Below, one piece after another: positions 1,324 through 62,580 of a DNA stretch of 64,000 bases. The stretch comes from Gigantopelta aegis. Its lineage: Eukaryota > Mollusca > Gastropoda > Neomphalida > Peltospiridae. The stretch spans positions 38,097,177-38,161,176 of the forward strand of contig NC_054703.1 in NCBI RefSeq assembly GCF_016097555.1. The letters are read 5' to 3'. The notes beneath the pieces were generated by a model, which had not been told where the DNA came from, ran no database searches, and saw only the letters and a program-made list of their open reading frames with translations. The position numbers and the translations under genes were made by a program. Position 1 is the stretch's first letter. The number at the start of each line of letters is the position of its first letter.

Positions 1324-2145
1324 TCAGGTTCTTACATGACGTTGAAGATCATGGTTGTTCTCAAACAAAATACCGCATTCGTCACAGGAAGGCATGTTGA
1401 CAACTGTATCAATATCCTCAGTATCACTATAATTAAATTCACTGTCAACTTCAGAAGTTTCTGTCACGTCGTTTAAGTTGTTGTGTTTGATGTTCACAGG
1501 ATGACTGTTACTATTCAACTGAGGTGACTCTCGAATTGATGGTTCTTTTATAGGTTGTTGAGAAACACTGTCACTAGTAGTTATAACATTAGGTTTAAGT
1601 CTCTCATTCTCAGAGGTAGAAGGTCGTAAATCAATAGTCAGATTGCCATAAGGTTGTTGAACAGCTGCTTCATACACAGACACAAAACGATCAGTATTGT
1701 TGAGAAAAATTCTTCTTGCAAACAAGTTCACTTGTAGTCTGTCCACGGGTGAATTGAACAGAGTCACAAAATGTGAATTCAGAGCAATGTCACGTGACTC
1801 TTTGCCTCTCGGAAACAAATTTTGTAACAGTAAAAAATTAATGACATTCTTGTGATGTGAAGTACGAGTAAAAAGTTGAGAAATACGTTTATCATCCTTG
1901 GCCTCGGTCATGTGATCATCCAGAATTAAAACATTATTGTTGTGTGCATCAAAGTAGTTGTTGTCCTGCAGGTTGTAAGGGATACCTTTCACAAACTGAA
2001 TTTGAGGCATGGTCTCACGAATAGTATCATAAAGGGGTTGCCACTCGTTGTAACACCATACAATGTTGTTAGGTGTTGGCTTGATGAGTCCTTTCCGAAG
2101 TATATGATACATAAACATTGTCTTCCCACATCCACTAGGGCCCAC
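1324..2145 (-). CDS. Polinton packaging ATPase (A32/FtsK-HerA type)
   Basis: The frame begins with a Walker A loop (GPSGCGKT) and about 70 residues later has a Walker B strand (VLILDDH). Further conserved sequence, including KNVINFLLLQNLFPRG, is typical of the viral A32-like DNA-packaging ATPases found in every complete Polinton. A serine- and asparagine-rich linker and a C2H2 zinc-finger-like C-terminus (CDECGILF with a paired HVRT) follow. The ATPase would drive genome packaging into particles. The methionine shown lies very close to the P-loop, so the natural protein probably starts further upstream. The gene region is treated as a fossil with about one break. Confidence 0.8.
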   Translation of the reverse strand: MGPSGCGKTMFMYHILRKGLIKPTPNNIVWCYNEWQPLYDTIRETMPQIQFVKGIPYNLQDNNYFDAHNNNVLILDDHMTEAKDDKRISQLFTRTSHHKNVINFLLLQNLFPRGKESRDIALNSHFVTLFNSPVDRLQVNLFARRIFLNNTDRFVSVYEAAVQQPYGNLTIDLRPSTSENERLKPNVITTSDSVSQQPIKEPSIRESPQLNSNSHPVNIKHNNLNDVTETSEVDSEFNYSDTEDIDTVVNMPSCDECGILFENNHDLQRHVRT

Positions 2146-2184
2146 GAAAATGACATTGGAAGGTATAGTAAAATAAAACGGTTC

Positions 2185-2379
2185 TTAATCTGGTACCTGC
2201 TGAGCTTGCATTCCTTGTGGTGGTGGTGGTGGTGGTGGTGGTGGTGGTGGTGGTGATGATGGTGGTGGTGGTGGTGGTGGTGGTGGTGATGGTGGTGAAT
2301 GACTGGTCTGTCTATGTCTGAGCATGGCATCCCTCCTCGAAAACATTTTCTGACAATCTGGACACGATGTTGATCCCAT
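2185..2379 (-). CDS. C2H2 zinc-finger and polyproline segment, Polinton
   Basis: A short frame with one C2H2 finger (CPDCQKMF with HRQTSH) followed by a long proline run, then a glutamine-rich end. It lies just upstream of the ATPase on the same strand and has a finger like the one at the ATPase C-terminus. It is probably part of the same gene region. The proline run is encoded by a GGT-type microsatellite and is likely to vary in length. Confidence 0.5.
   Translation of the reverse strand: MGSTSCPDCQKMFSRRDAMLRHRQTSHSPPSPPPPPPPPPSSPPPPPPPPPPPPQGMQAQQVPD
2217..2293. repeat. GGT/CCA trinucleotide microsatellite
   Basis: About 25 near-perfect copies of a GGT unit (CCA/CAC on the other strand) with a few GAT interruptions. 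It encodes the proline run in the Polinton zinc-finger segment. Confidence 0.95.
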
Positions 2380-2423
2380 GATGTTCAGGTATAAACTAAC
2401 TCAAATACAACACTCGCTATTAT

Positions 2424-3533
2424 TTATACCAACTGGAGATTTGCTTCTGGAATCCAGCTGTTAAACTTCTTAGGATAGCCCATCCACTTAACAAACACCT
2501 GTTTCTCACCTCTCCTCTTTCTTCTCTTAAGCACTTTCTCCACCTTCCAAATGTTATTGTCCGTTTTGAAGACTTGCTGTAACTCATTTTCGTAGAAGCT
2601 ACCTTCAATGGGGTCATCTGCATAATCTTTCAGTTGATATATAGGAAAACCATCTCTGTAGTATCTTCTCTTAATTATAAATATTTCTTCAGTCCATTTT
2701 TCTTGATAATCTCTTTGAAAGGTGTATTTCAAATGAGAAATTCTCACTTGATCCCCAACCTTAAATTTGAAAGGTTTCCTTTTAGTTTTAGACTTTGTTT
2801 TCAAAAGATCGATGTACTGCTCTTTCCACACCATAGCTTCATTTTGCTCGTCGATGTCTGAAGGTGATCGCTGATTTAATGACCTGTGTGGTCTATGATT
2901 GTAACCATCTACTAGATCTTGTAGAATATCCAGGTAGTGATAAGTCTGTTTATATGTAAAATATCTGTACATAGCAACCTTCAGAGTCCGGATCACTCTC
3001 TCAGCATATGATGCTTTGGTCTCATTCTGAGTGACATAGAATGTTATATCTTTGTCTTTCAAATATGATTTCACTTTTTTATTATTGAATTCACGGCCTT
3101 TATCTGATCTAATAATCCCTGGTAAAGGTGCAGTGGCAAATATTTTCTTCAGTGCTTTAATGACAGATTCTGGTTGTTTGTTTTTCATGGGTTCAACCCA
3201 TAGATATCTTGTAAAAACATTGATAGATATCAACAGGAATTTTACACCGTTATTATCCAATTCAATATTAGAAACGTCTGCTAAATCAACATCCCATCGT
3301 GCATTCAGTCCACTCGCCACGAGCCTGTTTCTTTTGAATTTGTAGCGCAACGATCGCTGAAGCGAGTAGGCGTCTTGCGAAGCAAGCCACCGTTTGATAT
3401 GGTGTAAGCTAATATCAAATTTCCCTTCCTTTTTTACAATACGATACAGTTTATTTACTCCCGAAAAGGAAGCTGGGTGTTTTGGATTAAAATAAATATT
3501 CAACAAATATTCTGTCCACCCTTCTCTAGGCAT
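2424..3533 (-). CDS. Polinton integrase with chromodomain-like tail
   Basis: A 369-residue retroviral-type (rve) integrase, open throughout. An N-terminal helical region with a degenerate zinc-binding area comes first. The catalytic core follows with WDVDLADVS (first Asp), IIRSDKGREF (second Asp) and TKASYAERVIRT (Glu), giving a complete DDE triad. Next is an SH3-like region (FKVGDQVRIS), then a chromodomain-like end (WKVEKVLKRR through VFVKWMGYP and NSWIP). It would insert the element and make a short target duplication. The gene reads inward from the terminal repeat, as is usual in Polintons. The stop is at the C-terminal coordinate and the start is the first methionine. Confidence 0.92.
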   Translation of the reverse strand: MPREGWTEYLLNIYFNPKHPASFSGVNKLYRIVKKEGKFDISLHHIKRWLASQDAYSLQRSLRYKFKRNRLVASGLNARWDVDLADVSNIELDNNGVKFLLISINVFTRYLWVEPMKNKQPESVIKALKKIFATAPLPGIIRSDKGREFNNKKVKSYLKDKDITFYVTQNETKASYAERVIRTLKVAMYRYFTYKQTYHYLDILQDLVDGYNHRPHRSLNQRSPSDIDEQNEAMVWKEQYIDLLKTKSKTKRKPFKFKVGDQVRISHLKYTFQRDYQEKWTEEIFIIKRRYYRDGFPIYQLKDYADDPIEGSFYENELQQVFKTDNNIWKVEKVLKRRKRRGEKQVFVKWMGYPKKFNSWIPEANLQLV

Positions 3534-3639
3534 GATTATAGATTAATGAGATAAAAATAAATTGTTGGTAATATTTATATCGAATGTAAACAGTTGCCTA
3601 CAATACAATGTTTTCATAATATTTGCAACACTCTTAAAT

Positions 3640-8412: not shown

Positions 8413-11400
8413 TTAAAAACTAGGGGCTGTCATTTTAACTGTAAATACTACTCTCCATATCACCAGTCTTATTAACGGTAGATACTACTATCTATATCAT
8501 CAGTGTTATTAACAGTATATACTACTCTCTAGATCACCAGTATTGTTAACAGTACATACTACTATCTAGATCACCAGTGTTGTTAACAGCATACACTACT
8601 CTCTGTGTCACCAGTGTTGTTAACAGCAAATACTACTCTCTGTGTCACCAGTGTTGTTAACAGCATATACTACTATCTGTGTCACCAGTGTTGTTAACAG
8701 CATATACTACTATCTGTGTCACCAGTGTTGTTAACAGCATATACTACTCTCTGTGTCGCCAGCGTTGTTAACAGCGTATATTACTCTCTATGTCACCAGC
8801 GTTGTTGACAGCACTGACTACTCTCTATGTCACCAGCGTTGTTGACAGCAATGACTACTCTCTATGTCACCAGCGTTATTGACAGCACATACTACTCTCT
8901 GTATCACCAGCGTTATTGATAGCACATACTACTCTCTGTATCACCAGCGTTATTAACAACACATACTACTCTATATCACCAGCGTTATTGACAGCACATA
9001 CTACTCTCTGTATCACCAGCGTTATTAACAGCACATACTACTCTCTGTTTCACCAGCGTTATTGACAGCACATACTACTCTCTGTATCACCAGCGTTATT
9101 AACAACACATACTACTCTATATCACCAGCGTTATTAACAGCACATACTACTCTCTATATCACCAGCGTTATTAACAGCACATAATACTCTCTATCTAGCC
9201 AGTGTTATTAACAGCACATACTACTCTCTATATCACCCGTGTTATTAACAGCACATACTACTCTCTATATCACCCGTATTATTAACAACATAATCTACTC
9301 TCTATATCACCCGTGTTATTAACAGCACATACTACTCTCTATATCACCCGTGTTATTAACAACATAATCTACTCTCTATATCACCAGTGTTATTAACAGC
9401 ATATACTACTCTCTATATCACCAGTGTTATTAACAGCATATACTACTCTCTATGTCACCAGCGTTATTAACAGCACATACTACTCTCTATGTCACCAGTG
9501 TTATTAACAGCATATACTACTCTCTATGTCACCAGCGTTATTAACAGCATATACTACTCTCTATATCACCAGTGTTATTAACAGCATATACTACTCTCTA
9601 TATCACCAGTGTTATTAACAGCATATACTACTCTCTATGTCAACAGCGTTATTAACAGCATATAATACTCTCTATGTCACCAGCATTACTAACAGCATAT
9701 ACTACTCTCTATGTCACCAGTGCTATTAACAGCATATACTACTCTCTAAATCACCAGTGCTATTAACAGCACATACTACTCTCTGTATCACCAGCGTTAT
9801 TGACAGCACATACTACTCTCTGTATCACCAGCGTTATTAACAACACATACTACTCTATATCACCAGCGTTATTAACAGCACATACTACTCTCTATGTCAA
9901 CAGCGTTATTAACAGCATATAATACTCTCTATGTCACCAGCATTACTAACAGCATATACTACTCTCAATGTCACCAGCGTTATTAACAGCATATACTACT
10001 CTCTATGTCACCAGCGTTATTAACAGCATATACTACTCTCTATGTCACCAGTGTTATTAACAGCATATACTACTCTCTATGTCACCAGCATTATTAACAG
10101 CATATACTACTCTCTATATCACCAGCGTTATTAACAGCACATACTACTCTCTGTATCACCAGCGTTATTAACAACACATACTACTCTATATCACCAGCGT
10201 TATTGACAGCACATACTACTCTCTGTATCACCAGCGTTATTAACAGCACATACTACTCTCTGTATCACCAGCGTTATTGACAGCACATACTACTCTCTGT
10301 ATCACCAGCGTTATTAACAACACATACTACTCTATATCACCAGCGTTATTAACAGCACATACTACTCTCTATATCACCAGCGTTATTAACAGCACATAAT
10401 ACTCTCTATCTAGCCAGTGTTATTAACAGCACATACTACTCTCTATATCACCCGTGTTATTAACAGCACATACTACTCTCTATATCACCCGTGTTATTAA
10501 CAACATAATCTACTCTCTATATCACCCGTGTTATTAACAGCACATACTACTCTCTATATCACCCGTGTTATTAACAACATAGTCTACTCTCTATATCACC
10601 AGTGTTATTAACAGCATATACTACTCTCTATATCACCAGTGTTATTAACAGCATATACTACTCTCTATGTCACCAGCGTTATTAACAGCACATACTACTT
10701 TCTATGTCACCAGTGTTATTAACAGCATATACTACTCTCTATGTCACCAGCGTTATTAACAGCATATACTACTCTCTATATCACCAGTGTTATTAACAGC
10801 ATATACTACTCTCTATATCACCAGTGTTATTAACAGCATATACTACTCTCTATGTCAACAGCGTTATTAACAGCATATACTACTCTCTATGTCACCAGCA
10901 TTACTAACAGCATATATACTCTCTATGTCACCAGTGCTATTAACAGCATATACTACTCTCTAAATCACCAGTGTTATTAACAGCATATACTACTCTCAAT
11001 GTCACCAGCGTTATTAACAGCATATACTACTCTCTATGTCACCAGCATTATTAACAGCATATACTACTCTCTATATCACCAGCGTTATTAACAACATGTA
11101 CTACTCTCTTTATTACCAGTGTTATTAACAGCATATACTACTCTCTATATCACCAGTGTTATTAACAGCATATACTATTCTCTATATCAGCAGCGTTACT
11201 AACATTATATACTACTCCCTATATCATCAGTGTTATTAACAGTTAATATTACTCTCTATATCACCAGCCTTATTAACAATATATACTACTCTCTATATCA
11301 CCAGTCTTGTTAACAGTTAATATTGCTCTCTATATCACCAGTGTTATTAACAGCATATACTACTCTCTATATCACCAGTGTTATTAACAGTATATACTAC

Positions 11401-13590
11401 TGTCTATATCACCAGTGTTATTAACAGTTAATATTACTCTCTATATCACCAGTGTTATTAACATTATATATTACTCTATATCACCAGTGTTATTAACAGT
11501 GTATACTACTCTCTATATCACCAGTGTTATTAACAGTATATACTACTGTCTATATCACCAGTGTTATTAACAGTTAATATTACTCTCTATATCACCAGTG
11601 TTATTAACATTATATACTACTCTATATCACCAGTGTTATTAACAGTGTATACTACTCTCTATATCACCAGTGTTATTAACAGTATATACTACTCTCTATA
11701 TCACCAGTGTTATTAACAACATATACTACTTTCTATATCACCAGTGTTAATAACAGCATATACTACTCTCTATATCACCAGTGTTATTAACATTATATAC
11801 TGCTCTCTATATCACCAGTCTTTTTAACATTATATACTATTCTATATCACCAGTGTTATTAACAGCATATACTACTCTATATCGCCAGTGTTATTAACAT
11901 TATATACTACTCTCTATATCACCAGTCTTGTTAACAGTTAATATTGCTCTCTATATCACCAGTGTTATTAACAGCATATACTACTCTCTATATCACCAGT
12001 GCTATTAACAGTATATACTACTGTCTATATCACCAGTGTTATTAACAGTTAATATTACTCTCTATATCACCAGTGTTATTAACATTATATACTACTCTAT
12101 ATCACCAGTGTTATTAACAGTGTATACTACTCTCTATATCACCAGTGTTATTAACAACATATACTACTCTCTATATCACCAGTGTTATTAACAGTATATA
12201 CTACTCTCTATATCACCAGTGTTATTAACAACATATACTACTCTCTATATCACCAGTGTTAATAACAGCATATACTACTCTCTATATTACCAGTGTTATT
12301 AACATTATATACTGCTCTCTATATCACCAGTCTTTTTAACATTATATACTATTCTATATCACCAGTGTTATTAACAGCATATACTACTCTATATCGCCAG
12401 TGTTATTAACATTATATACTACTCTCTATATCACCAGTCTTGTTAACAGTTAATATTGCTCTCTATATCACCAGTGTTATTAACAGCATATACTACTCTC
12501 TATATCACCAGTGCTATTAACAGTATATACTACTGTCTATATCACCAGTGTTATTAACAGTTAATATTACTCTCTATATCACCAGTGTTATTAACATTAT
12601 ATACTACTCTATATCACCAGTGTTATTAACAGTGTATACTACTCTCTATATCACCAGTGTTATTAACAACATATACTACTCTCTATATCACCAGTGTTAA
12701 TAACAGCATATACTACTCTCTATATCACCAGTGTTATTAACATTATATACTACTCTCTATATCACCAGTCTTTTTAACATTATATACTATTCTATATCAC
12801 CAGTGTTATTAACAGCATACACTACTCTATATCACCAGTGTTATTAACATTATATACTACTCTCTATATCACCAGTCTTGTTAACAGTTAATATTGCTCT
12901 CTATATCACCAGTGTTATTAACAGCATATACTACTCTCTATATCACCAGTGTTATTAACAGTATATACTAATGTCTATATCACCAGTGTTATTAACAGTT
13001 AATATTACTCTCTATATCACCAGTGTTATTAACATTATATACTACTCTATATCACCAGTGTTATTAACAGTGTATACTACTCTCTATATCACCAGTGTTA
13101 TTAACAGTATATACTACTCTCTATATCACCAGTGTTATTAACAGCATATACTACTCTCTATGTCACCAGCGTTATTAGCGGCATATACTACTCTCTATGT
13201 CACCAGCGTTATTAACAGCATATACTACTCTCTATGTCACCAGTGATATTAACATTATATACTACTCTCTATATCACCAGTCTTTTTAACATTATATACT
13301 ATTCTATATCACCAGTGTTATTAACAGCATATACTGCTCTATATCACCAGTGTTATTAACATTATATACTACTCTCTATATCACCAGTCTTGTTAACAGT
13401 TAATACTACTATCTATATCTACGTCTTATTAACGTTAGATAATACCAACTCACCAGTCTTATTAACGTTAGATACTACTAACTCACCAGTCTTATTAACG
13501 GTAGATACTACTATCCATCTCACCAGTCTTATTAGCTGAAAAATACTACTCTCTATTTCACCAGTCGTATTAACAGTAGGTAGTATCTGT
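8413..13590. repeat. 37-bp satellite array, about 140 copies
   Basis: The unit of 37 bp reads ACTACTCTCTATATCACCAG followed by a TGTTATTAACAGCATAT-type half. It is imperfectly repeated for about 5.2 kb. Diagnostic variants recur at fixed distances. The TATCTAGCC variant is at about 9193 and 10408 (1215 bp apart). The TCTTTTTAACATT variant is at 11819, 12331, 12769 and 13281 (steps of 512, 438, 512, where 512 minus 438 equals two units). This shows higher-order repeats of several sizes. It has no open frame of interest. Divergence rises at both edges. Confidence 0.95.
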
Positions 13591-21317: not shown

Positions 21318-24300
21318 CCTTTTTGAGGTAACATGTTTATTACTGTCATAACATATTATTTTTATTCTTGTATAGTGTGTATCCTATAACATTAATGTAA
21401 GGTAGTGGTACCATGGCCCCTGTTTATTACTGCCATAACATATTATTTGTATTCTTGTATAGTGTGTATCCTATAACATTAATGTAAGGTAGTGGTACCA
21501 TGGCCCCTGTTTATTACTGTCATAAGATATTATTTGTATTCTTGTATAGTGTGTATTCTATAACATTAATGTAAGGTAGTGACACCAGGCCCCTGTTTAT
21601 TAGAGTCATAAGATATTATTTGTATTCTTGTATAGTGTGTATTCTATAACATTAATGTAAGGTAGTGGTACCATGGCCCCTGTTTATTACTGCCATAACA
21701 TATTATTTGTATTCTTGTATAGTGTGTATTCTATAACATTAATGTAAGGTAGTGGTACCAGAGCCCCTGTTTATTACTGCCATAACATATTATTTGTATT
21801 CTTGTATAGTGTGTATTCTATAACATTAATGTAAGGTAGTGGTACCATGGCCCCTGTTTATTACTGCCATAACATATTATTTGTATTCTTGTATAGTGTG
21901 TATTCTATAACATTAATGTAAGGTAGTGGTACCAGAGCCCCTGTTTATTACTGCCATAACATATTATTTGTATTCTTGTATAGTGTGTATTCTATAACAT
22001 TAATGTAAGGTAGTGATACCAGAGCCACTGTTTATTACTGCCATAACATATTATTTGTATTCTTGTATAGTGTGTATTCTATAACATTAATGTAAGGTAG
22101 TGATACCAGAGCCACTGTTTATTACTGTCATAACATATTATTTGTATTCCTGTATAGTGTGTATTCTATAACATTAATGTAAGGTAGTGACACCAGGCCC
22201 CTGTTTATTACTGTCATAACATATTATTTGTATTCTTGTATAGTGTGTATTCTATAACATTAATGTAAGGTAGTGATACCAGAGCCCCTGTTTATTACTG
22301 CCATAACATATTATTTTTATTCTTGTATAGTGTGTATTCTATAACATTAATGTAAGGTAGTGGTACCAGAGCCCCTGTTTATTACTGTCATAACATATTA
22401 TTTGTATTCTTGTATAGTGTGTATTCTATAACATTAATGTAAGGTAGTGATACCAGGGCCCCTGTTTATTACTGTCATAACATATTATTTGTATTCTTGT
22501 ATAGTGTGTATTCTATAACATTAATGTAAGGTAGTGGTACCAGAGCCCCTGTTTATTACTGCCATAACATATTATTTTTATTCTTGTATAATGTGTATTC
22601 TATAACATTAATGTAGGGTAGTGGTACCATGGCCCCTGTTTATTACTGTCATAACATATTATTTGTATTCTTGTATAGTGTGTATTCTATAACATTAATG
22701 TAAGGTAGTGATACCATGGCCCCTGTTTATTACTGCCATAACATATTATTTGTATTCTTGTATAGTGTGTATCCTATAACATTAATGTAAGGTAGTGATA
22801 CCATGGCCCCTGTTTATTACTGTCATAACATATTATTTGTATTCTTGTATAGTGTGTATTCTATAACATTAATGTAAGGTAGTGATACCAGGGCCCCTGT
22901 TTATTACTGTCATAACATATTATTTGTATTCTTGTATAGTATGTATTCTATAACATTAATGTAAGGTAGTGATACCAGTGCCCTGTTTATTACTGTCATA
23001 ACATATTATTTGTATTCTTGAATAGTGTGTATTCTATAACATTAATGTAAGGTAGTGGTACCAGAGCCACTGTTTATTACTGTCATAACATATTATATGT
23101 ATTCTTGTATAGTGTGTATTCTATAACATTAATGTAAGGTAGTGGTACCAGAGCCCCTGTTTATTACTGTCATAACATATTATTTGTATTTTTGTATAGT
23201 GTGTATCCTATAACATTAATGTAAGGTAGTGGTACCAGAGCCCCTGTTTATTACTGTCATAACATATTATTTGTATTCTTGTATAGTGTGTATTCTATAA
23301 CATTAATGTAAGGTAGTGGTACCATGGCCCCTGTTTATTACTGTCATAACATATTATTTGTGTTCTTGTATAGTGTGTATCCTATAACATTAATGTAAGG
23401 TAGTGGTACCAGGACCCCTGTTTATTACTGTCATAACATATTATTTGTATTCTTGTATAGTGTGTATCCTATAACATTAATGTAAGGTAGTGATACCATG
23501 GCCCCTGTTTATTACTGTCATAACATATTATTTGTATTATTATATAGTGTGTATTCTACAACATTAATGTAAGGTAGTGATACCAGAGCCCCTGTTTATT
23601 ACTGTCATAACATATTATTTGTATTATTATATAGTGTGTATTCTATAACATTAATGTAAGGTAGTGATACCAGGACCCCTGTTTATTACTGTCATAACAT
23701 ATTATTTGTATTCTTGTATAGTGTGTATTCTATAACATTAATGTAAGGTAGTGGTACCATGGCCCCTGTTTATTACTGTCATAACATATTATTTGTATTC
23801 TTGTATAGTGTGTATCCTATAACATTAATGTAAGGTAATGACACCAGGGCCCCTGTTTATTACTGCCATAACATATTATTTGTATTCTTGTATAGTGTTT
23901 ATTCTATAACATTAATGTAAGGTAGTGACACCAGGACCCCTGTTTATTACTGTCATAACATATTATTTGTATTCTTCTATAGTGTGTATCCTATAACATT
24001 AATGTAAGGTAGTGGTACCAGAGCCCCTGTTTATTACTGTCATAACATATTATTTGTATTCTTGTATAGTGTGTATTCTATAACATTAATGTAAGGTAGT
24101 GATACCAGTGCCCTGTTTATTACTGTCATAACATATTATTTGTATTCTTGTATAGTGTGTATTCTATAACATTAATGTAAGGTAGTGATACCATGGCCCC
24201 TGTTTATTACTGTCATAACATATTATTTGTATTCTTGTATAGTGTGTATTCTATAACATTAATGTAAGGTAGTGGTACCATGGCCCCTGTTTATTACTGT

Positions 24301-27015
24301 CATAACATATTATTTGTATTCTTGTATAGTGTGTATCCTATAACATTAATGTAAGGTAGTGGTACCAGGACCCCTGTTTATTACTGTCATAACATATTAT
24401 TTGTATTCTTGTATAATGTGTATTCTATAACATTAATGTAAGGTAGTGATACCATGGCCCCTGTTTATTACTGTCATAACATATTATTTGTATTATTATA
24501 TAGTGTGTATTCTACAACATTAATGTAAGGTAGTGATACCAGAGCCCCTGTTTATTACTGTCATAACATATTATTTGTATTATTATATAGTGTGTATTCT
24601 ATAACATTAATGTAAGGTAGTGATACCAGGACCCCTGTTTATTACTGTCATAACATATTATTTGTATTCTTGTATAGTGTGTATCCTATAACATTAATGT
24701 AAGGTAGTGACACCAGGGCCCCTGTTTATTACTGCCATAACATATTATTTGTATTCTTGTATAGTGTTTATTCTATAACATTAATGTAAGGTAGTGACAC
24801 CAGGACCCCTGTTTATTACTGCCATAACATATTATTTGTATTCTTGTATAGTGTTTATTCTATAACATTAATGTAAGGTAGTGACACCAGGGCCCCTGTT
24901 TATTACTGTCATAACATATTATTTGTATTCTTGTATAGTGTTTATTCTATAACATTAATGTAAGGTAGTGGTACCATGGCCCCTGTTTATTACTGTCATA
25001 ACATATTATTTGTATTCTTGTATAGTGTGTATTCTATAACATTAATGTAATAACATATTATTTGTATTATTATATAATGTGTATTCTATAACATTAATGT
25101 AAGGTAGTGGTACCAGGGCCCCTGTTTATTACTGCCATAACATATTATTTGTATTCTTGTATAGTATGTATTCTATAACATTAATGTAAGGTAGTGGTAC
25201 CAGGGCCCCTGTTTATTACTGCCATAAATATTATTTGTATTCTTGTATAGTATGTGTTCTATAACATTAATGTAAGGTAGTGATACCATGGCCCCTGTTT
25301 ATTACTGTCATAACATATTATTTGTATTCTTGTATAGTGTGTATTCTATAACATTAATGTAAGGTAGTGGTACCATGGCCCCTGTTTATTACTGTCATAA
25401 CATATTATTTGTATTCTTGTATAGTGTGTATTCTATAACATTAATGTAAGGTAGTGATACCAGGGCCCCTGTTTATTACTGCCATAACATATTATTTGTA
25501 TTCTTGTATAGTGTGTATCCTATAACATTAATGTAAGGTAGTGATACCATGGCCCCTGTTTATTTCTGTCATAACATATTATTTGTATTCTTGTATAGTG
25601 TGTATTCTATAACATTAATGTAAGGTAGTGGTACCATGGCCCCTGTTTATTACTGTCATAACATATTATTTGTATTCTTGTATAGTGTGTATCCTATAAC
25701 ATTAATGTAAGGTAGTGATACCAGGACCCCTGTTTATTACTGTCATAACATTATTTGTATTCTTGTATAGTGTGTATTCTATAACATTAATGTAAGGTAG
25801 TGATACCATGGCCCCTGTTTATTACTGTAATAACATATTATTTGTATTCTTGTATAGTGTGTATTCTATAACATTAATGTAAGGTAGTGATACCATGGCC
25901 CCTGTTTATTACTGTCATAACATATTATTTGTATTCTTGTATAGTGTGTATCCTATAACATTAATGTAAGGTAGTGACACCAGGGCCCCTGTTTATTACT
26001 GCCATAACATATTATTTGTATTCTTGTATAGTGTGTATCCTATAACATTAATGTAAGGTAGTGGTACCAGGGCCCCTGTTTATTACTGCCATAACATATT
26101 ATTTGTATTCTTGTATAGTGTGTATCCTATAACATTAATGTAAGGTAGTGATACCAGGGCCCCTGTTTATTACTGTCATAACATATTATTTGTATTCTTG
26201 TATAGTGTGTATCCTATAACATTAATGTAAGGTAGTGGTACCATGGCCCCTGTTTATTACTGCCATAACATATTATTTGTATTCTTGTATAGTGTGTATC
26301 CTATAACATTAATGTAAGGTAGTGATACCGTGGCCCCTGTTTATTACTGTCATAACATATTATTTGTATTCTTGTATAGTATGTATTCTATAACATTAAT
26401 GTAAGGTAGTGGTACCATGGCCCTGTTTATTACTGTCATAACATATTATTTTTATTCTTGTATAATGTGTATTCTATAACATTAATGTAAGGTAGTGATA
26501 CCAGGGCCCCTGTTTATTACTGTCATAACATATTATTTTTATTCTTGTATAATGTGTATTCTATAACATTAATGTAAGGTAGTGGTACCATGCCCCTGTT
26601 TATTACTGTCATAACATATTATTTTTATTCTTGTATAGTGTGTATTCTATAACATTAATGTAAGGTAGTGGTACCAGAGCCCCTGTTTATTACTGCCATA
26701 ACATATTATTTGTATTCTTGTATAATGTGTATTCTATAACATTAATGTAGGGTAGTGATACCAGAGCCCCTGTTTATTACTGTCATAACATATTATTTGT
26801 ATTCTTGTATAGTGTGTATTCTATAACATTAATGTAAGGTAGTGACACCAGAGCCCCTGTTTATTACTGTCATAACATTATTTGTATTCTTGTATAGTGT
26901 GTATTCTATAACATTAATGTAAGGTAGTGATACCATGGCCCCTGTTTATTACTGTCGTAACATATTATTTGTATTATTATATAGTGTGTATCATATAATA
27001 TTAAGGTAGTGATAC
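21318..27015. repeat. 87-bp satellite array, about 65 copies
   Basis: The unit of 87 bp contains TAACATATTATTTGTATTCT, TGTATAGTGTGTATTCTATA, ACATTAATGTAAGGTAGTG and GGCCCCTGTTTATTACTG. Copies differ mainly at a few positions: ATTCT/ATCCT, CCATGG/CCAGAG/CCAGGG, and GCC/GTC in CTG(C/T)CATAA. Those variants recur in blocks, suggesting homogenisation in segments. A few copies carry short deletions (near 25042 and 25741). No long open frames. Confidence 0.95.
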
Positions 27016-27461
27016 CAGGGGTCCCAACCCTGGCATTACCGTATTTCTTTTCTGGGGACAATAAACTTTGAAAAAAAGTTTTTAAAAAAGAGTTTCTTTA
27101 TTAACATTTAGACGAACCAGTCACTACAGACCGATACGCCAAGAAGGGCGACCAGTCGTCACGTGACTTTACTACTGCCACGAAATCCAGAGCTGCACCA
27201 GGTAAGAGATTCCACATGCTTTTTATTTGTCTTCCAGATTCAGGCACAGATCCAGGCACAGATCCAGGAGTAGGCACCGAGACACGCACACCCCTTTTAT
27301 TTTCACTCATGTCAAAAAAACTATAATAAAAGTCCCCCACCCATTTCACTAAACCGTGGATCCGTCCCTGCTAAGTATTGTTGGACAGACAGAAAACTGG
27401 GTCTTTTTTTATACCAGACTGACACACATACTAATCGGCTACTGGGTGTCAGAAAGGTATA
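27016..27461. other. Satellite flank with poly(A)-like end
   Basis: The array ends in GGGGACAATAAACTTTGAAA plus an A-rich run (27055-27085), like the 3' end of a retroposed transcript. A minus-strand frame at 27101-27349 with a PGSVPGSVPESG repeat has no recognisable domain and is not called as a gene. Confidence 0.35.
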
Positions 27462-37414: not shown

Positions 37415-37700
37415 AGCACTATTTTTAGTAGTCAGGATATGAAATTCTTTAAGAGATAATTCTACAAATATTATGTCTTGTGTTTTGTGTTGTAAAAAAA
37501 ATAACAACAACAAAAAAAACAAAAACAAAAAACAACCCAAAAACCCCCCGCATTTAGTAGTCAGACTATATACAATTCTAAAAGTGTTAATTCATGAAAC
37601 ATTATATATTGTCTTTTCCGTTGTCGTTAGAACAAAAAAACAAAACAAAAAACCAAAAAAAACAACAACGAAAAAAGAACATTTGGTAGTCAGGTAAAAT
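37415..37700. repeat. A-rich tandem duplication, about 130-bp unit
   Basis: The phrases TTTAGTAGTCAG, AATTCTxxAA, CATTATATATTGTCTTxxxTGT and CAAAAAAAC-rich stretches recur two to three times. An A/C-rich simple repeat forms the core. Confidence 0.6.
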
Positions 37701-41270: not shown

Positions 41271-41806
41271 ACGAAAATGCCCGAATCTGGTTGACAACAT
41301 TTATTCATATTAGCAGTACTGCCAAACAGCTATATAGGGTTACAAACGAATCACTACGCATTACTATATGGATTACAACTAATATTGCGGGTAGAATGTT
41401 GAAAACATGGTACAGTTGGTTTCAGGTTAGCTCAGTTTGCTTAGATATCTCTATCGGGGTTTTGTTTTTCTTCATATTTTGAGAATTGTTTTCCAGCACT
41501 AGGAAATACATAGTAAAAAAGTCACATTTTGTCCGAATATCTCTATCGTTTTTACCCGACTTTGAGAATTGTTTTCCAGCACTAGGAAATACATACCGTA
41601 GTATAAAGGTCACATTTTGCCCGAATATCTCTATCGTTTTCACCCAACTTTGAGAACTTGTTCCAGCACTAGGAAATACATGGTGAAAAGGTCACATTTT
41701 GCCCGAATATCTCTATCGTTTTTACCCAACTTTGAGAATTGTTTTCCAGCACTAGGTTTAATGGAAATATATGGTAAAAATATCCCAGGTTTGCACATCT
41801 TACCAA
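41271..41806. repeat. Dispersed repeat with internal 86-bp tandem units
   Basis: 41305-41400 matches 19965-20055. It is followed by four to five tandem units carrying CGAATATCTCTATCGTTTTT, ACTTTGAGAATTGTTTTCC and AGCACTAGGAAATACAT. A further end piece lies beyond the SINE at 42095-42165 (TTGTTTTCCAGCATTAGGGG, then C-rich DNA). The order (leader, units, C-rich end) is the same as at 19930-20470. Confidence 0.7.
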
Positions 41807-42085: not shown

Positions 42086-42299
42086 AACATCTCTCCCGAA
42101 TATCAGAATTTGTTTTCCAGCATTAGGGGACTCTTGGTTCACCCACCCCCACCCCACCCCACCCCGTCTCGTACGGTTACGCTTCTGACAACAGAAGTGA
42201 AGGAAGATGAAACAGTGAGATATCCGTGGAAGTAAAAAAAAAAGCCGTCGTGGCTTTAAACCCCCTTAACCCCATACACTTTTATGAGCAGTGCCCTAT

Positions 42300-43330
42300 G
42301 TCCCTCCCCCATGCGTTGTCAATGTTCACAGTTATAGCGATGTTGCTGGACGCAATTTACGTCCTTCCCCCATGCGTTGTCAATGTTCACAGTTATAGCG
42401 AAGTTGCTGGACGCAATTTACGTCCTTCACCCTATACGTTGTCAATGTTCACAGATATAGCGATGTTGCTGGACGCAATTTACGTCCTTCCCTATATACG
42501 TTGTCAATGTTCACAGATATAGCGATGTTGCTGGACGCAATTTACGTCCTTCTGTCTATACGTTGTCAATGTTCACAGATATAGCGATGTTGCTGGACGC
42601 AATTTACGTCCTTTCCCCTATACGTTGTCAATGTTCACAGATATAGCGATGTTGCTGGACGCAATTTACGTCCTTCCCCCTATACGTTGTCAATGTTCAC
42701 AGTTAAAGCGGTGTTGCTGGTCACACGCTACGTCTCTCACCCTATAGGTTGTCAATGTTCACAGATATAGCGGTGCTACTAGTCGCACGTTACATCCCTC
42801 CCCCTATACGTTGGTAACGGTCACAGATATAGCGATGTTGCTGATCGCATGTTACATCTATTCCCCTATACGTTGTCAATGTTCACAGATTCAGCGGTGT
42901 TGCTGGTCGCACGTTACGTCTCTCCCCCTTTACGTCACACATTACATCTTTCACTCTATACGTCGTCAATGTTCAGGGATATAGCGATATTTCTGGTCAC
43001 ACGTTACGTCTCTCGCCTTATACCTTGTCAATTTTCACAGATATAGCGTTGTTGCTGGTCACACGTTACGTTCCTCCCCCTATATGTTGTCAATGTTCAC
43101 AGATATAGCAATGTTGCTGGTCGCACTTTACGTCCCTCCCCATATATGTTGTCAATGTTCAAAGATATAGCGGTGTTGCTGGTTACACGTTACGTTCCTC
43201 CCCCTATACGTTGTCAATGTTCACAGATATAGCAGTGTTGCTGGTCACACTTTACGTCTCTCCCTCTATACGTTGTCAATGTTCACAGATATAGCGGTGT
43301 TGCTCGTTGCATTTTACGTCCTTCCAGTCG
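42300..43330 (-). repeat. 61-bp minisatellite derived from the lectin exon's 3' end
   Basis: About 16-17 units of roughly 61 bp. On the minus strand each reads GACGTAA(A/T)(T/G)TGC, then CAGCAACA(T/C)CGCTATATC and TGTGAACATTGACAACG. That spells DVxCxxQHRYICEH followed by TGA, the exact end of the C-type lectin exon that begins at 43487. The first unit is the exon end itself and the rest continue into its 3' flank. Units near the exon keep TGGTCACACG-type variants. Distal ones share GGACGCAATTTACG and look recently homogenised. Confidence 0.93.
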
Positions 43331-43487
43331 TTGAGTTTCGAACCCGTTATCACGCACGGTTCGTTCGCTCCTTCGTCCTGACCCGGACCCCACCACATCC
43401 GCTCCACACGCTGTCCGTCAGTCCACTCCCATGCCAGGGTATTGCTGGGGTCATTGGCCCCTATATAAAACCACAGCTGAGGATAAT
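43273..43487 (-). CDS. C-type lectin gene, exon 3 (second half of the CTLD)
   Basis: Acceptor TTTTGCAG precedes 43487 and the exon starts at the second base of a codon (phase 1). It encodes YPQLWFYIGANDPSNTLAWE, WTDGQRVERMWWGPGQDEG, NEPCVITGSKLNDWKDVKC and HRYICEH, then TGA at 43273-43275. These are the WIGxxD, WxWxDG, C-x-W-x-D-x-C and YICE landmarks of the C-type lectin fold. The usual EPN/QPD sugar-binding triplet is absent and WND is WKD. Calcium-dependent sugar binding is therefore doubtful. It joins exon 2 through a GAT codon. Confidence 0.88.
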
Positions 43488-43563
43488 CTGCAAAACATAA
43501 GTCTGGAAGGTAATGGGTATTGCTCAGGTCATTGGCGTCTATAGAAATCGACAACCGAGGATA
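43485..43563 (-). repeat. Tandem duplication at the 5' edge of lectin exon 3
   Basis: 43563-43512 (minus strand TATCCTCGGTTGTCGATTTC, then CCAATGACCTGAGCAAT) is a diverged copy of the exon start at 43485 (TATCCTCAGCTGTGGTTTTA, then CCAATGACCCCAGCAAT), offset about 78 bp. It lies in the intron just upstream of the acceptor. Confidence 0.75.
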
Positions 43564-43692
43564 CTTGGATTTTGATATGTCTGAAATGTCCCTAACGGTT
43601 ATAGCCCAGGAAGTAGATAAAGTTGTACAGATGGCCCTAAAATTAATTCTACGTAGTGGGACAACTTGGTACTTACCAATTACGAATATCTA

Positions 43693-43768
43693 TTTCCCGG
43701 ACACCCAATAGCCGATGTGTATTTTTGTGCTGGGATGTCGTTAAACATCCATCCATTCATTAATTAAT
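43693..43768 (+). mobile_element. LINE 3'-tail fragment of the SINE-partner type
   Basis: CCCAATAGCCGATGTGTATT, then GTGCTGGGATGTCGTTAAAC and CATCCATTCATT repeats match the 3' end of the LINE at 58074-58483. No reverse transcriptase is attached. Confidence 0.7.
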
Positions 43769-45238: not shown

Positions 45239-45396
45239 CGGTACTAAGATTGAAGTACCTGATTCTAATATGTCTAAGATGTCCCTGACTTTGTCTTCTG
45301 TGTCAATCTTTACTTGGGGGTAGTACTAAGATTGAAGTACCTGATTCTAATATGTCTAAGATGTCCCTGACTTTGTCTTCTGTGTCAAGCTTTATG
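45239..45396 (-). repeat. 82-bp tandem duplication at the 3' edge of lectin exon 2
   Basis: The last 57 bases of exon 2, its GTACTT donor and about 15 intron bases occur twice (45324-45396 and 45239-45308), offset 82 bp and nearly identical. The downstream copy therefore offers a second exon end with the same donor. It is recent, with only two to three differences. Confidence 0.9.
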
Positions 45397-45517
45397 AGAC
45401 TTCCTCCATCAGACTCGCACGCGGCTTTGGCTTGGAACCAGGTTTTTTCATCTGATGAAAGATTAACGCACATTCCAGTTCTTTTAATAAACTGATAGCC
45501 ATCAAGCTGGCAGATCC
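45341..45517 (-). CDS. C-type lectin gene, exon 2 (first half of the CTLD)
   Basis: Acceptor TTTTCTCTACAG precedes 45517 and donor GTACTT follows 45341. The length is 177 bases with both ends in phase 1 (symmetric). It encodes ICQLDGYQFIKRTGMCVNLS, SDEKTWFQAKAACESDGGSL and an IKLDTEDKVRDILDILES end. This is the opening of a long-form CTLD with the C-terminal partner cysteines in exon 3. The extra first cysteine pair fits the long form. The downstream donor is duplicated 82 bp away. Confidence 0.88.
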
Positions 45518-47045: not shown

Positions 47046-47430
47046 AGGGTGCCTGCGTAAATCACAAAACAAATTAAGATGACCTTATATACGAGTAAAT
47101 CACAAAATAAAATAAGATGACCTTATATATGAGTAAATCACAAAATAAAATAAGATGACCTTATATATGAGTAAATCACAAAATAAAATAAGATGACCGT
47201 ATATATGAGTAAATCACAAAACAAAATAAGATGACCGTATATATGAGTAAATCACATAATCGAATAATGTAAATCACAAAATAAATTAAGATGACCTTAT
47301 ATATGAGTAAATCACAAAATAAATTAAGATGACCTTATATATGAGTAAATCACAAAATAAAATAAGATGACCTTATATATGAGTAAATCATAAAATAAAT
47401 TAAGATGACCTTATACACGAGTAAATCAGA
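47046..47430. repeat. 38-bp minisatellite in lectin intron 1, about ten copies
   Basis: The unit GAGTAAATCACAAAATAAAA plus TAAGATGACCTTATATAT is repeated with small changes (CTT/CGT, AAATT/AAAAT). It lies within 80 bp of the exon 1 donor. Confidence 0.93.
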
Positions 47431-47508: not shown

Positions 47509-47746
47509 CTGGATAAACAACAAAATAATTCACATCACTTGAAGCTGAAGTCAGATTTCTGATCCATCGTCTGTTCAGGTGGCAAAACCCCGTTTTGCTG
47601 TTGAAAAAAAACGAGGAACAAAATCTACTACGGTAACAAGAAATTGTACATCCGACCTGGTTGTTTGCGGTCGTCAACGTTGAACCATTAGCTACAGTAA
47701 CGCTGATAGCGTACAGTTCGGAAATCAGTACAGGAAAACAGACCAT
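47509..47746 (-). CDS. PAN/apple-C-type lectin protein, exon 1
   Basis: ATG at 47746, donor CCAG then GTAAAC after 47509, phase 1. It encodes MVCFPVLISELYAISVTVAN, a weak candidate signal or anchor segment. A cysteine-rich block follows, C-x3-C-x5-C-x2-FFFN-x5-C, as in PAN/apple folds, with a WIRNL..VNYFVVYP end. Joined to exons 2 and 3 by matching phases it gives a 209-residue protein (238+177+215 bases). PAN domains bind proteins or sugars and CTLDs recognise ligands outside the cell, so a secreted recognition or matrix role is likely. A paralogous exon lies at 6605-6848. Confidence 0.8.
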
Positions 47747-49483: not shown

Positions 49484-49530
49484 TATTACCAGAGTGCTTT
49501 TCGGTATTTGTCAATATCATATATTGAGAA

Positions 49531-49828
49531 TAAAAATTGTACGCTTGACCCGACCTCAAAGTTCTTTAATACAAAACTGTACGCTAGACCCGTCCTTAAA
49601 ATTCTTTAATACAAAAATGTACGCTGGACCCGTCCTTAAAGTTCTTTAATACAAAAGTGTACGCTAGACCCGTCCTTAAAGTTCTTTAATACAAAAATGT
49701 ACGCTTGACCCGTCCTTAAAGTTCTTTAATACAAAAATGTACGCTTGATCCGTCCTTAAAGTTCTTTAATACAAAAATGTACGCTTGACCCGACCTCAAA
49801 GTTCTTCAATACAAAAATAAGGACGGGT
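49531..49828. repeat. 40-bp minisatellite, seven copies
   Basis: The unit AGTTCTTTAATACAAAAATG plus TACGCTTGACCCGTCCTTAA is repeated with little change. A short inverted piece (AAGGACGGGTCG) ends it at about 49820-49831. It lies just downstream of the exon at 49902 on the minus strand. Confidence 0.94.
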
Positions 49829-49901: not shown

Positions 49902-50113
49902 TTACACAATCGCTTTTGACAACTTCCGGTGTCTACATTGATAACACTTGATGTTCCAGTTACTCACAAACAATCCGGGACAGCGATCGTTTGTTTTGCA
50001 AAGAGATCTGCAAGCCTCGGATGACGGAGTGATCTTGTGTTTCGTGAATCTAATATCCACTGTCTTCTTATTATTAATATGACGTGCGTAGAACGTGACA
50101 TACTCTTCACAAC
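49902..50113 (-). CDS. Cysteine-rich PAN-like protein, terminal exon
   Basis: Acceptor TACATTACAG precedes 50113. In phase 1 the exon reads CEEYVTFYARHINNKKTVDI, RFTKHKITPSSEACRSLCK and TNDRCPGLFVSNWNIKCYQC, with stop TAA at 49902-49904. The pattern C-x3-C-x5-C-x9-C resembles the PAN-like exons at 47.6 and 6.7 kb (C-x3-C-x5-C-x10-C). A GTGAGT word after GLF could be an internal donor. The acceptor and first 16 exon bases are multiplied in the adjacent 54-bp array. The upstream partner is probably the exon at 52294 (phase 1). Confidence 0.6.
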
Positions 50114-51050
50114 CTGTAATGTAACCGAACTATTAGGCGAATCGGTATATCACATACTCTTCACAACCTGTAATGTAACCGAACTATTAGGCGAATCGGC
50201 ATATCACATACTCTTCACAACCTGTAATGTAACCGAACTATTAGGCGAATCGGCATATCACATACTCTTCACAACCTGTAATGTAACCGAACTATTAGGC
50301 GAATCGGCATATCACATACTCTTCACAACCTGTAATGTAAACTGACTATTAGGCGAATCGGCATATCACATACTCTTCACAATCTGTAATGTAACCAAAC
50401 TATTGGACAAATCGGCATATCACATACTCTTCACAATCTGTAATGTAACCAAACTATTGGACGAATCGGCATATCACATACTCTTCACAATCTGTAATGT
50501 AACCAAACTATTAGACGAATCGGCATATCACATACTCTTAACCTGTAATGTAACCAAACTATTAGACGAATCGGCATATCACATACTCTTTACAATCTGT
50601 AATGTCACCAAACTATTAGACGAATCGGCATATCACATACTCTCCATAACCTGTAATATAAACGAACCATTATACGAAAAAAAAGTGTTTTGTTTAACGA
50701 CACCACTAGAGCACATTGATTATTAATCTCCGACTATTGGATGTCAAACATTTCGTATTTTTGACATGTAGTCTTAGACAGGAAACCCGCTACATTTTTT
50801 GTTCCATTAATAGCAAGACATCTTTTATATGCACCACCCCACAGACACAATAGCACATACCACGGCCTTTGATATACCAGTCGTGGTGCACATAGTCCAA
50901 TGGGCCCACCAACAGGGATCGATCCTAGACCGACCGAGCATCAAGGGAGCACTTTACCACTGGACTACGCCCAACTCCCATTAGACGAATCAGTATATTA
51001 CATACTCTTCACAAACTGTAATGTAACCGAACTATTAGACGAATCAGTAT
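50104..51050 (-). repeat. 54-bp minisatellite carrying a splice acceptor in every unit
   Basis: About 11 units at 50104-50676 and one to two more at 50978-51050, separated by a SINE. On the minus strand each contains TACATTACAG, then GTTGTGAAGAGTATGT (or ATTGTGAAGAG). This is the acceptor and first bases of the exon at 50113-49902. The unit then reads GATATGCCGATTCGCCTAAT. Units fall into a GGCGAAT group near the exon and an AGACGAAT group farther away. Confidence 0.92.
50678..50977 (-). mobile_element. SINE, family A, inserted in the 54-bp array
   Basis: Full length with head CTACGCCCAACTC. The flanking duplication CCATTATACGA / CCATTAGACGA (50667-50677 and 50978-50988) has one difference, so the SINE is younger than the array. 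Confidence 0.92.
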
Positions 51051-54827: not shown

Positions 54828-55150
54828 GTGGGAGTGCAGGCAGCAAGACCAGATCTGATGATTGAAGATGTTGTGGAGTCGGATGAGAAATGTATGTTTT
54901 ATACTGGACTACCAAATGCCGCCACATTCAACGTCTTGTTTAGTGAAATGACTGATGCTGAAAAATATACCCATAGGAAAGGGAACGGGAACAATCAAGG
55001 TCGACCTAGGATCCTTAGGCTGGTTGACGAGTTTTTTTCTTGTACTTATCCGGCTTAGACTGGGGCTTCTATTGGGAGATATTGCACAGAGGTTCACATT
55101 TCAACATCTACTTGCAGTAGCATTACCAGTCATTGGATTTCATATTTAAG
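54828..55150 (+). pseudogene. DDE_Tnp_4 transposase, N-terminal part (frameshifted)
   Basis: One frame reads DVVESDEKCMFYTGLPNAAT then FNVLFSEM and GNNQGRPRILRLVDEFF. It then continues in the next frame as LVLIRLRLGLLLGDIAQRF, the helix-turn-helix that precedes DDE_Tnp_4 domains, and then NISTST-like sequence in a third frame. At least two frameshifts separate it from the catalytic part. The true start is not visible. Confidence 0.6.
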
Positions 55151-55151
55151 T

Positions 55152-55733
55152 GTGAAGTGGTCAACTCTAACACCATGGCCATCACAATCTATAATTCGAC
55201 AAACAATACCCAATAAATTCCGAAGAAAATACCCCAATTGTCGTGTAATAATCGATTGCACAGAAATTTTCACCCAAAACCCCCAGTCATTGAAAAACAA
55301 AAGTCTGATGTTTTCGCATTATAAGTCACATATGACTTACAAAGCCTTGTTGGGAATAAGCCCGTCAGGTGTAATAACATTTGTCTCAGACCTTTGGGCA
55401 GGACGTATCAGTGACAAACTGTTGACCTTGAAATATGGTATACTGGACATTTGTCAAAGAGGTGATTCCATAATGGCTGACAAGGGTTTTCTTATCTCGG
55501 ACTTGACAACACCAAGAGGCATTCGGTTAATCATACCACCACTGAAATATCAACGTTTCACAAGAAGGCAGGTTGAAGAAACTAGACGTATTGCAAATCT
55601 TCGAATAGATGTTGAACGAGCCATGGAACGTGTGATACCAATTACTCTTGCACATCAAGCAACCAAAATATGGAAGATATGTGTTAGTTTATCAAATGTG
55701 TTACCACCTCTTGTTCGCGATGAAGATGAATGA
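55152..55733 (+). pseudogene. DDE_Tnp_4 transposase, catalytic part
   Basis: Open for 193 codons. IIDCTEIF carries the first Asp, FVSDLWAGRISD the second acidic block with ADKGF after it, and IDVERAMERV the final Glu. These match PF13359-type transposases of the IS5/Harbinger group. The typical YKSHMTYKALLGISPSG strand and NVLPPLV ending are present. The domain looks intact, but its N-terminus is shifted out of frame, so the gene is called broken. Confidence 0.75.
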
Positions 55734-60239: not shown

Positions 60240-60523
<284 letters not shown>

Positions 60524-61989: not shown

Positions 61990-62580
61990 CTATTTAATTT
62001 GGTAAAAGTTAACCCTAAATATTTGTACTCTTTTACGTTTTCGAGTGTTTTGGTTTCCTAATGTAAATAACGTCTTGTAGTCATTAGCAGTACCATTCAA
62101 AATTATTATTTTAGTTTTGTTTACGTTAACTTTAAGTTTCCATTTATTGCAATATTGTGAAAAGGCATTACGGGATTGTTGTAAATCGGAGGCGTTTGTT
62201 GCGAGAAGCGCAGTATCGTCAGCATCTAATAAGCTTAGAAAATAAAGAGCGGTTTCCGAAATTGTTGCTATGTCATCTGTGGCTATAGATACCCCAGTAC
62301 AATTGTAGCTTTTTAAGAAATTATCTAGATAATTTAAATAAATAAAAAACAAAACAGGTGACAAATTTTCTCTTTGACGGACACCGATATTGCAAGGGAA
62401 TAGATCTGATGTTTCATTGTTTGTACAAATGCAAGATTTTATTCCTTGATACATTTGGTAGATAATTTTGAAGAATTTTCCATTTCTGTTATTTTTAAGC
62501 AATTTTTGCCAAAGACATGTCCTAGAGATTAGATCAAATGCTTTTTAAAAATCTACGAAAGCGCAAAATAATTTCTTTTT
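61990..62580 (-). pseudogene. LINE reverse transcriptase, catalytic segment
   Basis: CAFVDF and KAFDLISR (62569-62530, with one stop between) carry the first catalytic Asp region. GVRQRENLSPVLFFIYLNYL follows and then LLDADDTALLATNASDLQ, where the usual F/YADD is DADD. WKLKVNVNKTKIIILNG continues. Several stops and shifts make it a dead copy. Confidence 0.8.

Follow-up and report, generated by a model that had tools for sequence, protein, structure and literature searches.

The window analysed here, a stretch of 64,000 nucleotides, carries on its minus strand a gene that reads as an intact open reading frame of three exons, PAN-like domain first and C-type lectin domain second, followed directly by a tandem array that resembles the end of its last exon. 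The first coding exon (47509..47746, minus strand) holds the ATG and the PAN-like domain and closes on the donor CCAG/GTAAACG; the middle exon (45341..45517, minus strand), placed by its splice sites, encodes the first part of the lectin domain; and the last coding exon (43276..43487, minus strand), placed by its Pfam Lectin_C match, splice site and coding sequence, encodes the second part, being preceded by the acceptor TTTTGCAG and ending in a TGA at 43278-43276. Joined at their GT/AG sites, the three exons give a single open frame of 208 aa, whose stop is the TGA of the array's unit 0.

The Pfam matches of this gene differ in firmness between the two domains. Lectin_C is found in the joined protein with E=1.8e-15 (residues 103-207 of 208, profile positions 2-106 of 107), in the middle and last exons together with E=5.3e-16, and in the last exon alone with E=1.4e-9 (residues 7-69 of its 70), and the match reaches the conserved end of the domain. 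PAN_1 passes the cut-off for the reading frame of the first exon (E=7.8e-5, with one extra leading residue in the query) and falls below it in the joined protein (0.0011, 19.2 bits against a cut-off of 21.4), so that the PAN label of this exon is only probable. By eye, the host lectin contains neither EPN nor QPD, the motifs looked for in connection with sugar binding by C-type lectin domains. Elsewhere on the minus strand of the window, a relative of the PAN-like exon lies at 6788-6606, with 54% over 61 residues; further on, at 5882-5811, the 3' part of such an exon is found as a partial and decayed copy (58% over 24 residues, with a stop).

The stop-edge array and its reading frame

The array consists of head-to-tail repeats of 62 bp, 16 units if the exon's own is counted. 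Unit 0, the seed (43257..43318, minus strand), is formed by the last 43 nt of the exon, TGA included, and 19 nt of flank; 15 further full units, U01-U15, follow it at 42300..43256 on the same strand, in what is presumably 3' UTR or flanking DNA, and the whole is covered by the TRF rows 42300-42935 and 42934-43325. The array thus lies in the lectin gene's own downstream flank, as a preliminary description of the locus had placed it; that description also gave a period of 61 bp, about 16 more units and an exon stop at 43273, and these figures need correction, since the spacing is 62 bp in 11 of the 15 steps (the others being 90, 61, 63 and 61), the units after unit 0 number 15, and the TGA lies near the position given but at 43278-43276. 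One unit, U05 (42919..43008, minus strand), carries 28 extra bases, a partial unit that TRF reports at 42906-42964 with a period of 28. The unit as a whole spans the stop codon and 3' flank and contains no splice site. Identity of U01-U15 to unit 0 ranges from 77.4 to 87.1%, or from 75.4 to 90.2% when the units are cut in the other phase.

For translation, the first two bases of the D codon were prefixed to every unit. Twelve of the 15 units are then open to a TGA at the expected place, while U06 and U08 stop earlier and U07 has no TGA. The claim that every unit reads DVxCxxQHRYICEH and TGA therefore holds for the stop codon in those 12 units, but the exact motif with its TGA is confined to four (U10-U13); the D position reads N in U02 and U04 by tblastn, which leaves the motif counts unchanged, and several units have cysteine losses or stops. 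The array consensus, translated by eye, is DVKCDQQHRYICEH.

Whatever the units could encode, the protein is unchanged by the array because the TGA of unit 0 ends translation. Neither AATAAA nor ATTAAA occurs on either strand of 42201-43700, in agreement with the earlier remark that the array is free of AATAAA, and on the gene's strand a scan with 12 signal variants gives a single hit within the array, AATAGA at 42862. The next such hexamers on that strand lie past the array (CATAAA at 42286, ATTAAA at 41762, AAGAAA at 41472 and AATAAA at 41305), in line with the expectation that the poly(A) site would be displaced beyond the array, with AATAGA as the one candidate inside. This scarcity of signals would fit an array that regulates the gene, either because its repeats offer binding sites within a long 3' UTR or because it sets the poly(A) site back; we consider such a role unlikely, however, given that two units together show no special fold (z -1.09, for two units only) and that the units diverge to 77% from unit 0.

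Derivation and probable drift of the units

That the array is the multiplied 3' edge of the lectin exon, the central proposal of the preliminary description, is borne out by alignment: the coding end of the exon scores 36-61 against the 15 units. The controls stay well below this, with maxima of 25 for 300 single-base shuffles of the array and of 23 for tiles of the remaining window on both strands, where no copy of the exon end rises above the control. The direction of this relationship follows from what is repeated. The peptide in question belongs to the lectin domain, of which it makes up the conserved end, both by Pfam and by comparison with solved structures: of 131 matched chains 60 were listed, and 57 of these align as far as residue 123 or 124 of the 125 in the query. 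The sequence of the exon end is therefore older than the array and seeded it. The converse, namely that a satellite already present beside the gene had its unit co-opted as the exon end, is very improbable, as it would have to account for an exon end that is a conserved domain motif and for a repeat with no other copy above control in the window. Because the assembly of tandem arrays is difficult, an artefact might be suspected; the units differ from one another, however, many by private changes that the mis-joining of one unit would not make, and there is only the slightest chance that the array arose in this manner. On these comparisons we regard the array as confirmed to be real and the exon end as its confirmed seed.

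The relationships among the units bear on how the array has evolved since. Similarity to the exon is no lower in the more distant units (rho 0.27, p 0.33, n=15), and homogenisation of the lectin array with the exon is accordingly not seen. In one cutting phase U12 is as close to the exon as the nearest unit, U01 (both 87.1%, the highest value), and in the other U10 and U13 lead (90.2%), so that the unit nearest the exon is not consistently the most exon-like. The most alike neighbours are instead found at the far end of the array, where those within U10-U15 (42300..42670, minus strand) are 91.7-98.4% identical and form the most homogeneous block. The unit tree is weak, with 10 of its 13 supports below 60, and the only groups that reach at least 80 are U10-U15 (87), U14+U15 (98) and U02+U04 (81).

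The possibility of continuing gene conversion with the functional exon, raised in the preliminary description, finds no support in these data: to the missing distance gradient are added the exon string AACGAG, which by eye is absent from all 15 aligned units, and the distribution of changes by codon position, which shows no third-position excess. Counted as minority cells over the 15 units, changes number 10 in 14 sites at first positions, 23 in 14 at second and 25 in 15 at third, first positions varying least, and 58 in 43 sites in the coding-derived part as against 44 in 19 in the non-coding tail; the lower variation at first positions and in the coding-derived part relative to the tail could be read as constraint. 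The same observations weigh on a more specific proposal, that the array is a donor reservoir whose units convert the functional exon end and thereby diversify the C-terminus of the lectin. It is in keeping with the 12 units that stay open to TGA and with a consensus that makes a plausible end of a lectin domain, but each of the three lines of evidence just given speaks against it, as do the cysteine losses or stops of several units, and we hold it to be highly improbable. To us the lectin array looks rather like a minisatellite that drifts and that last grew at the end facing away from the gene.

Other duplicated edges and tandem repeats in the window

The stop edge of the lectin gene is not the only exon edge in this region to have been duplicated. 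On the minus strand at 49904..50113 lies an exon-like open reading frame that ends in TAA, PAN-like by eye only and with no Pfam match, which we infer to be the last exon of a separate neighbouring gene, and its acceptor edge carries an array of 54-bp units (50098..50678, minus strand; TRF 10.8 copies), each of which repeats the acceptor and the first 16 nt of the exon. The array presents 11 acceptors, from 50651 to 50114 with the exon's own included, and one isolated acceptor copy lies outside it at 51016 (51052-51000, minus strand). Read in the exon's phase from the other 11 acceptors, the sequence meets a stop in every case. By eye, CTAAT stands about 20 nt ahead of the AG in 9 of the 12 acceptor copies, for which reason each copy may be a full acceptor. 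Similarity to the exon falls with distance in this array (rho -0.73, p 0.011, n=11), which indicates that homogenisation near an exon does occur in the region.

Within the lectin gene itself, an 82-bp duplication spans the donor edge of the middle exon (45241..45394, minus strand; TRF 1.9 copies), giving two identical donors 82 bp apart in 72-nt copies that agree at 71 of 72 positions (99%); by translation, splicing from the second donor would put the reading out of frame and run into a stop. A decayed 82-bp copy of the junction between the middle and last exons (43515..43596, minus strand; 65 of 82 positions identical in the alignment) is without the intron and sits inside the very intron that it lacks, a situation suggestive of an insertion derived from RNA or of a relative that has no intron; a 49-nt part of it is also found as a repeat at 82%, and its peptide has a weak match to DUF7228 that is below the cut-off (0.0015). 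Two further arrays, of 40 bp (49529-49818) and 38 bp (47057-47428), were tried as copies of neighbouring exon edges and were unconvincing, with local scores of 7 and 17, respectively. The 40-bp array, on the minus strand shortly past the TAA of the adjacent reading frame, contains ATTAAA six times and is a possible tandem set of poly(A) signals.

Tandem growth is common in this DNA, as 19 arrays with a period of at least 20, merged by hand from the TRF output, cover 26.0% of the window. Very large minisatellites are found at 8445-13576 (37 bp, 139.9 copies) and at 21334-27020 (87 bp, 42.8 plus 22.9 copies). Mobile-element genes are also seen, namely a DDE_Tnp_4 transposase at 55059-55730 (plus strand) and a reverse transcriptase at 61993-62544 (minus strand), and at 1327-3542 (minus strand) an integrase with a chromodomain lies beside a reading frame whose weak ATPase-type matches are all below cut-off. 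Three of the 19 arrays span one of eight exon edges where 0.18 would be expected with random seeds (P 0.0007), in a test that is post hoc, having been framed after the cases had been seen, and that used stand-in positions for the edges. Without the lectin array, which was given from the outset, two of the rest do so (P 0.012). The eight edges belong to four exons, which were recognised by homology or by eye and of which one lacks a Pfam match; the 87-bp repeat enters the 19 as two rows; and the low-complexity rows 37496-37543, 37631-37668 and 60346-60472 were left out despite periods of at least 20. Given its post hoc framing, these omissions and the small list of exons, the preference for exon edges is a lead only.

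Relation to mirages and a proposed origin

Minisatellite-like duplications of intron/exon boundaries are known in amphioxus as mirages and are described for the globins BflGb6 and BflGb9 and for Adh3, with unit lengths of 10-72 bp (Adh3) and 150-160 bp (globins), with BflGb6 units 81-100% identical to each other and with both 5' and 3' boundaries affected (PMC3087553). The 54-bp acceptor array and the 82-bp donor duplication fit this description directly. The lectin array shares with mirages the minisatellite-size, head-to-tail units laid over an exon boundary and the retention of the authentic exon, here intact in the 208-aa frame; mirages span intron/exon splice boundaries, whereas the 62-bp lectin unit extends across the stop codon into the 3' flank and is without a splice site, and we therefore call the array a variant and not a mirage. 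We see in it an event of the mirage type that took place at a different sort of boundary.

Two other systems offer partial parallels. Mirages have been compared with the tandem repeats of lancelet PGBD5 (PMC3902484), where the 108-bp repeat is a triplication and the passage concerned describes none at a stop codon. The prawn C-type lectins Rlecs (PMC7536079) likewise have tandem repeats in a C-type lectin gene, but those repeats are of 33 or 30 bp and lie inside the coding region, whereas the unit here has 62 bp, is not a multiple of three and lies past the stop. A search of paper titles, which was narrow and hence gives weak evidence of absence, found neither a minisatellite at a stop-codon edge nor a mirage in a mollusc. 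The view that coding sequence is an unusual seed for a satellite has to be set against the published mirages and the second edge array only 7 kb away.

Taking these observations together, we consider it likely that the intact lectin gene underwent a tandem duplication of a short piece that included its stop codon, and that slippage or unequal exchange then amplified the copies into the 15-unit non-coding minisatellite of the 3' flank. The first duplication would have been aided by the similarity between two short stretches, GGAAGGACGTA in the exon and GGGAGGGACATA at the far end of the array, which may mark the original slip site or may merely be a partial last unit; the far block U10-U15 would represent the latest growth. 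The array would be transcribed at most as 3' UTR and would do little; it has the look of a harmless side effect of a tandem duplication that spared the gene. It would persist because, when a tandem duplication runs across an exon boundary, one exon remains complete, stop or splice site included. Such buffering by the retained exon would likewise explain the duplicated acceptor and donor edges nearby.

Boundary-spanning duplications bring ready-made splice or stop signals with them, and the amphioxus authors proposed them as a route to new introns (PMC3087553). Here acceptor, donor and stop edges are all duplicated within about 7.5 kb, in an animal that probably belongs to another phylum than amphioxus, which makes a general preference of minisatellites for exon edges as seeds testable. 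It is a tentative and still rather doubtful proposition that exon edges of every kind, acceptor, donor and stop alike, are preferred birthplaces of minisatellites in the genome, on the grounds that a duplication spanning the boundary retains a working copy and so goes unnoticed by selection; mirages, rather than being special to amphioxus, would then be what tandem duplication generally yields in animal genomes prone to repeats.
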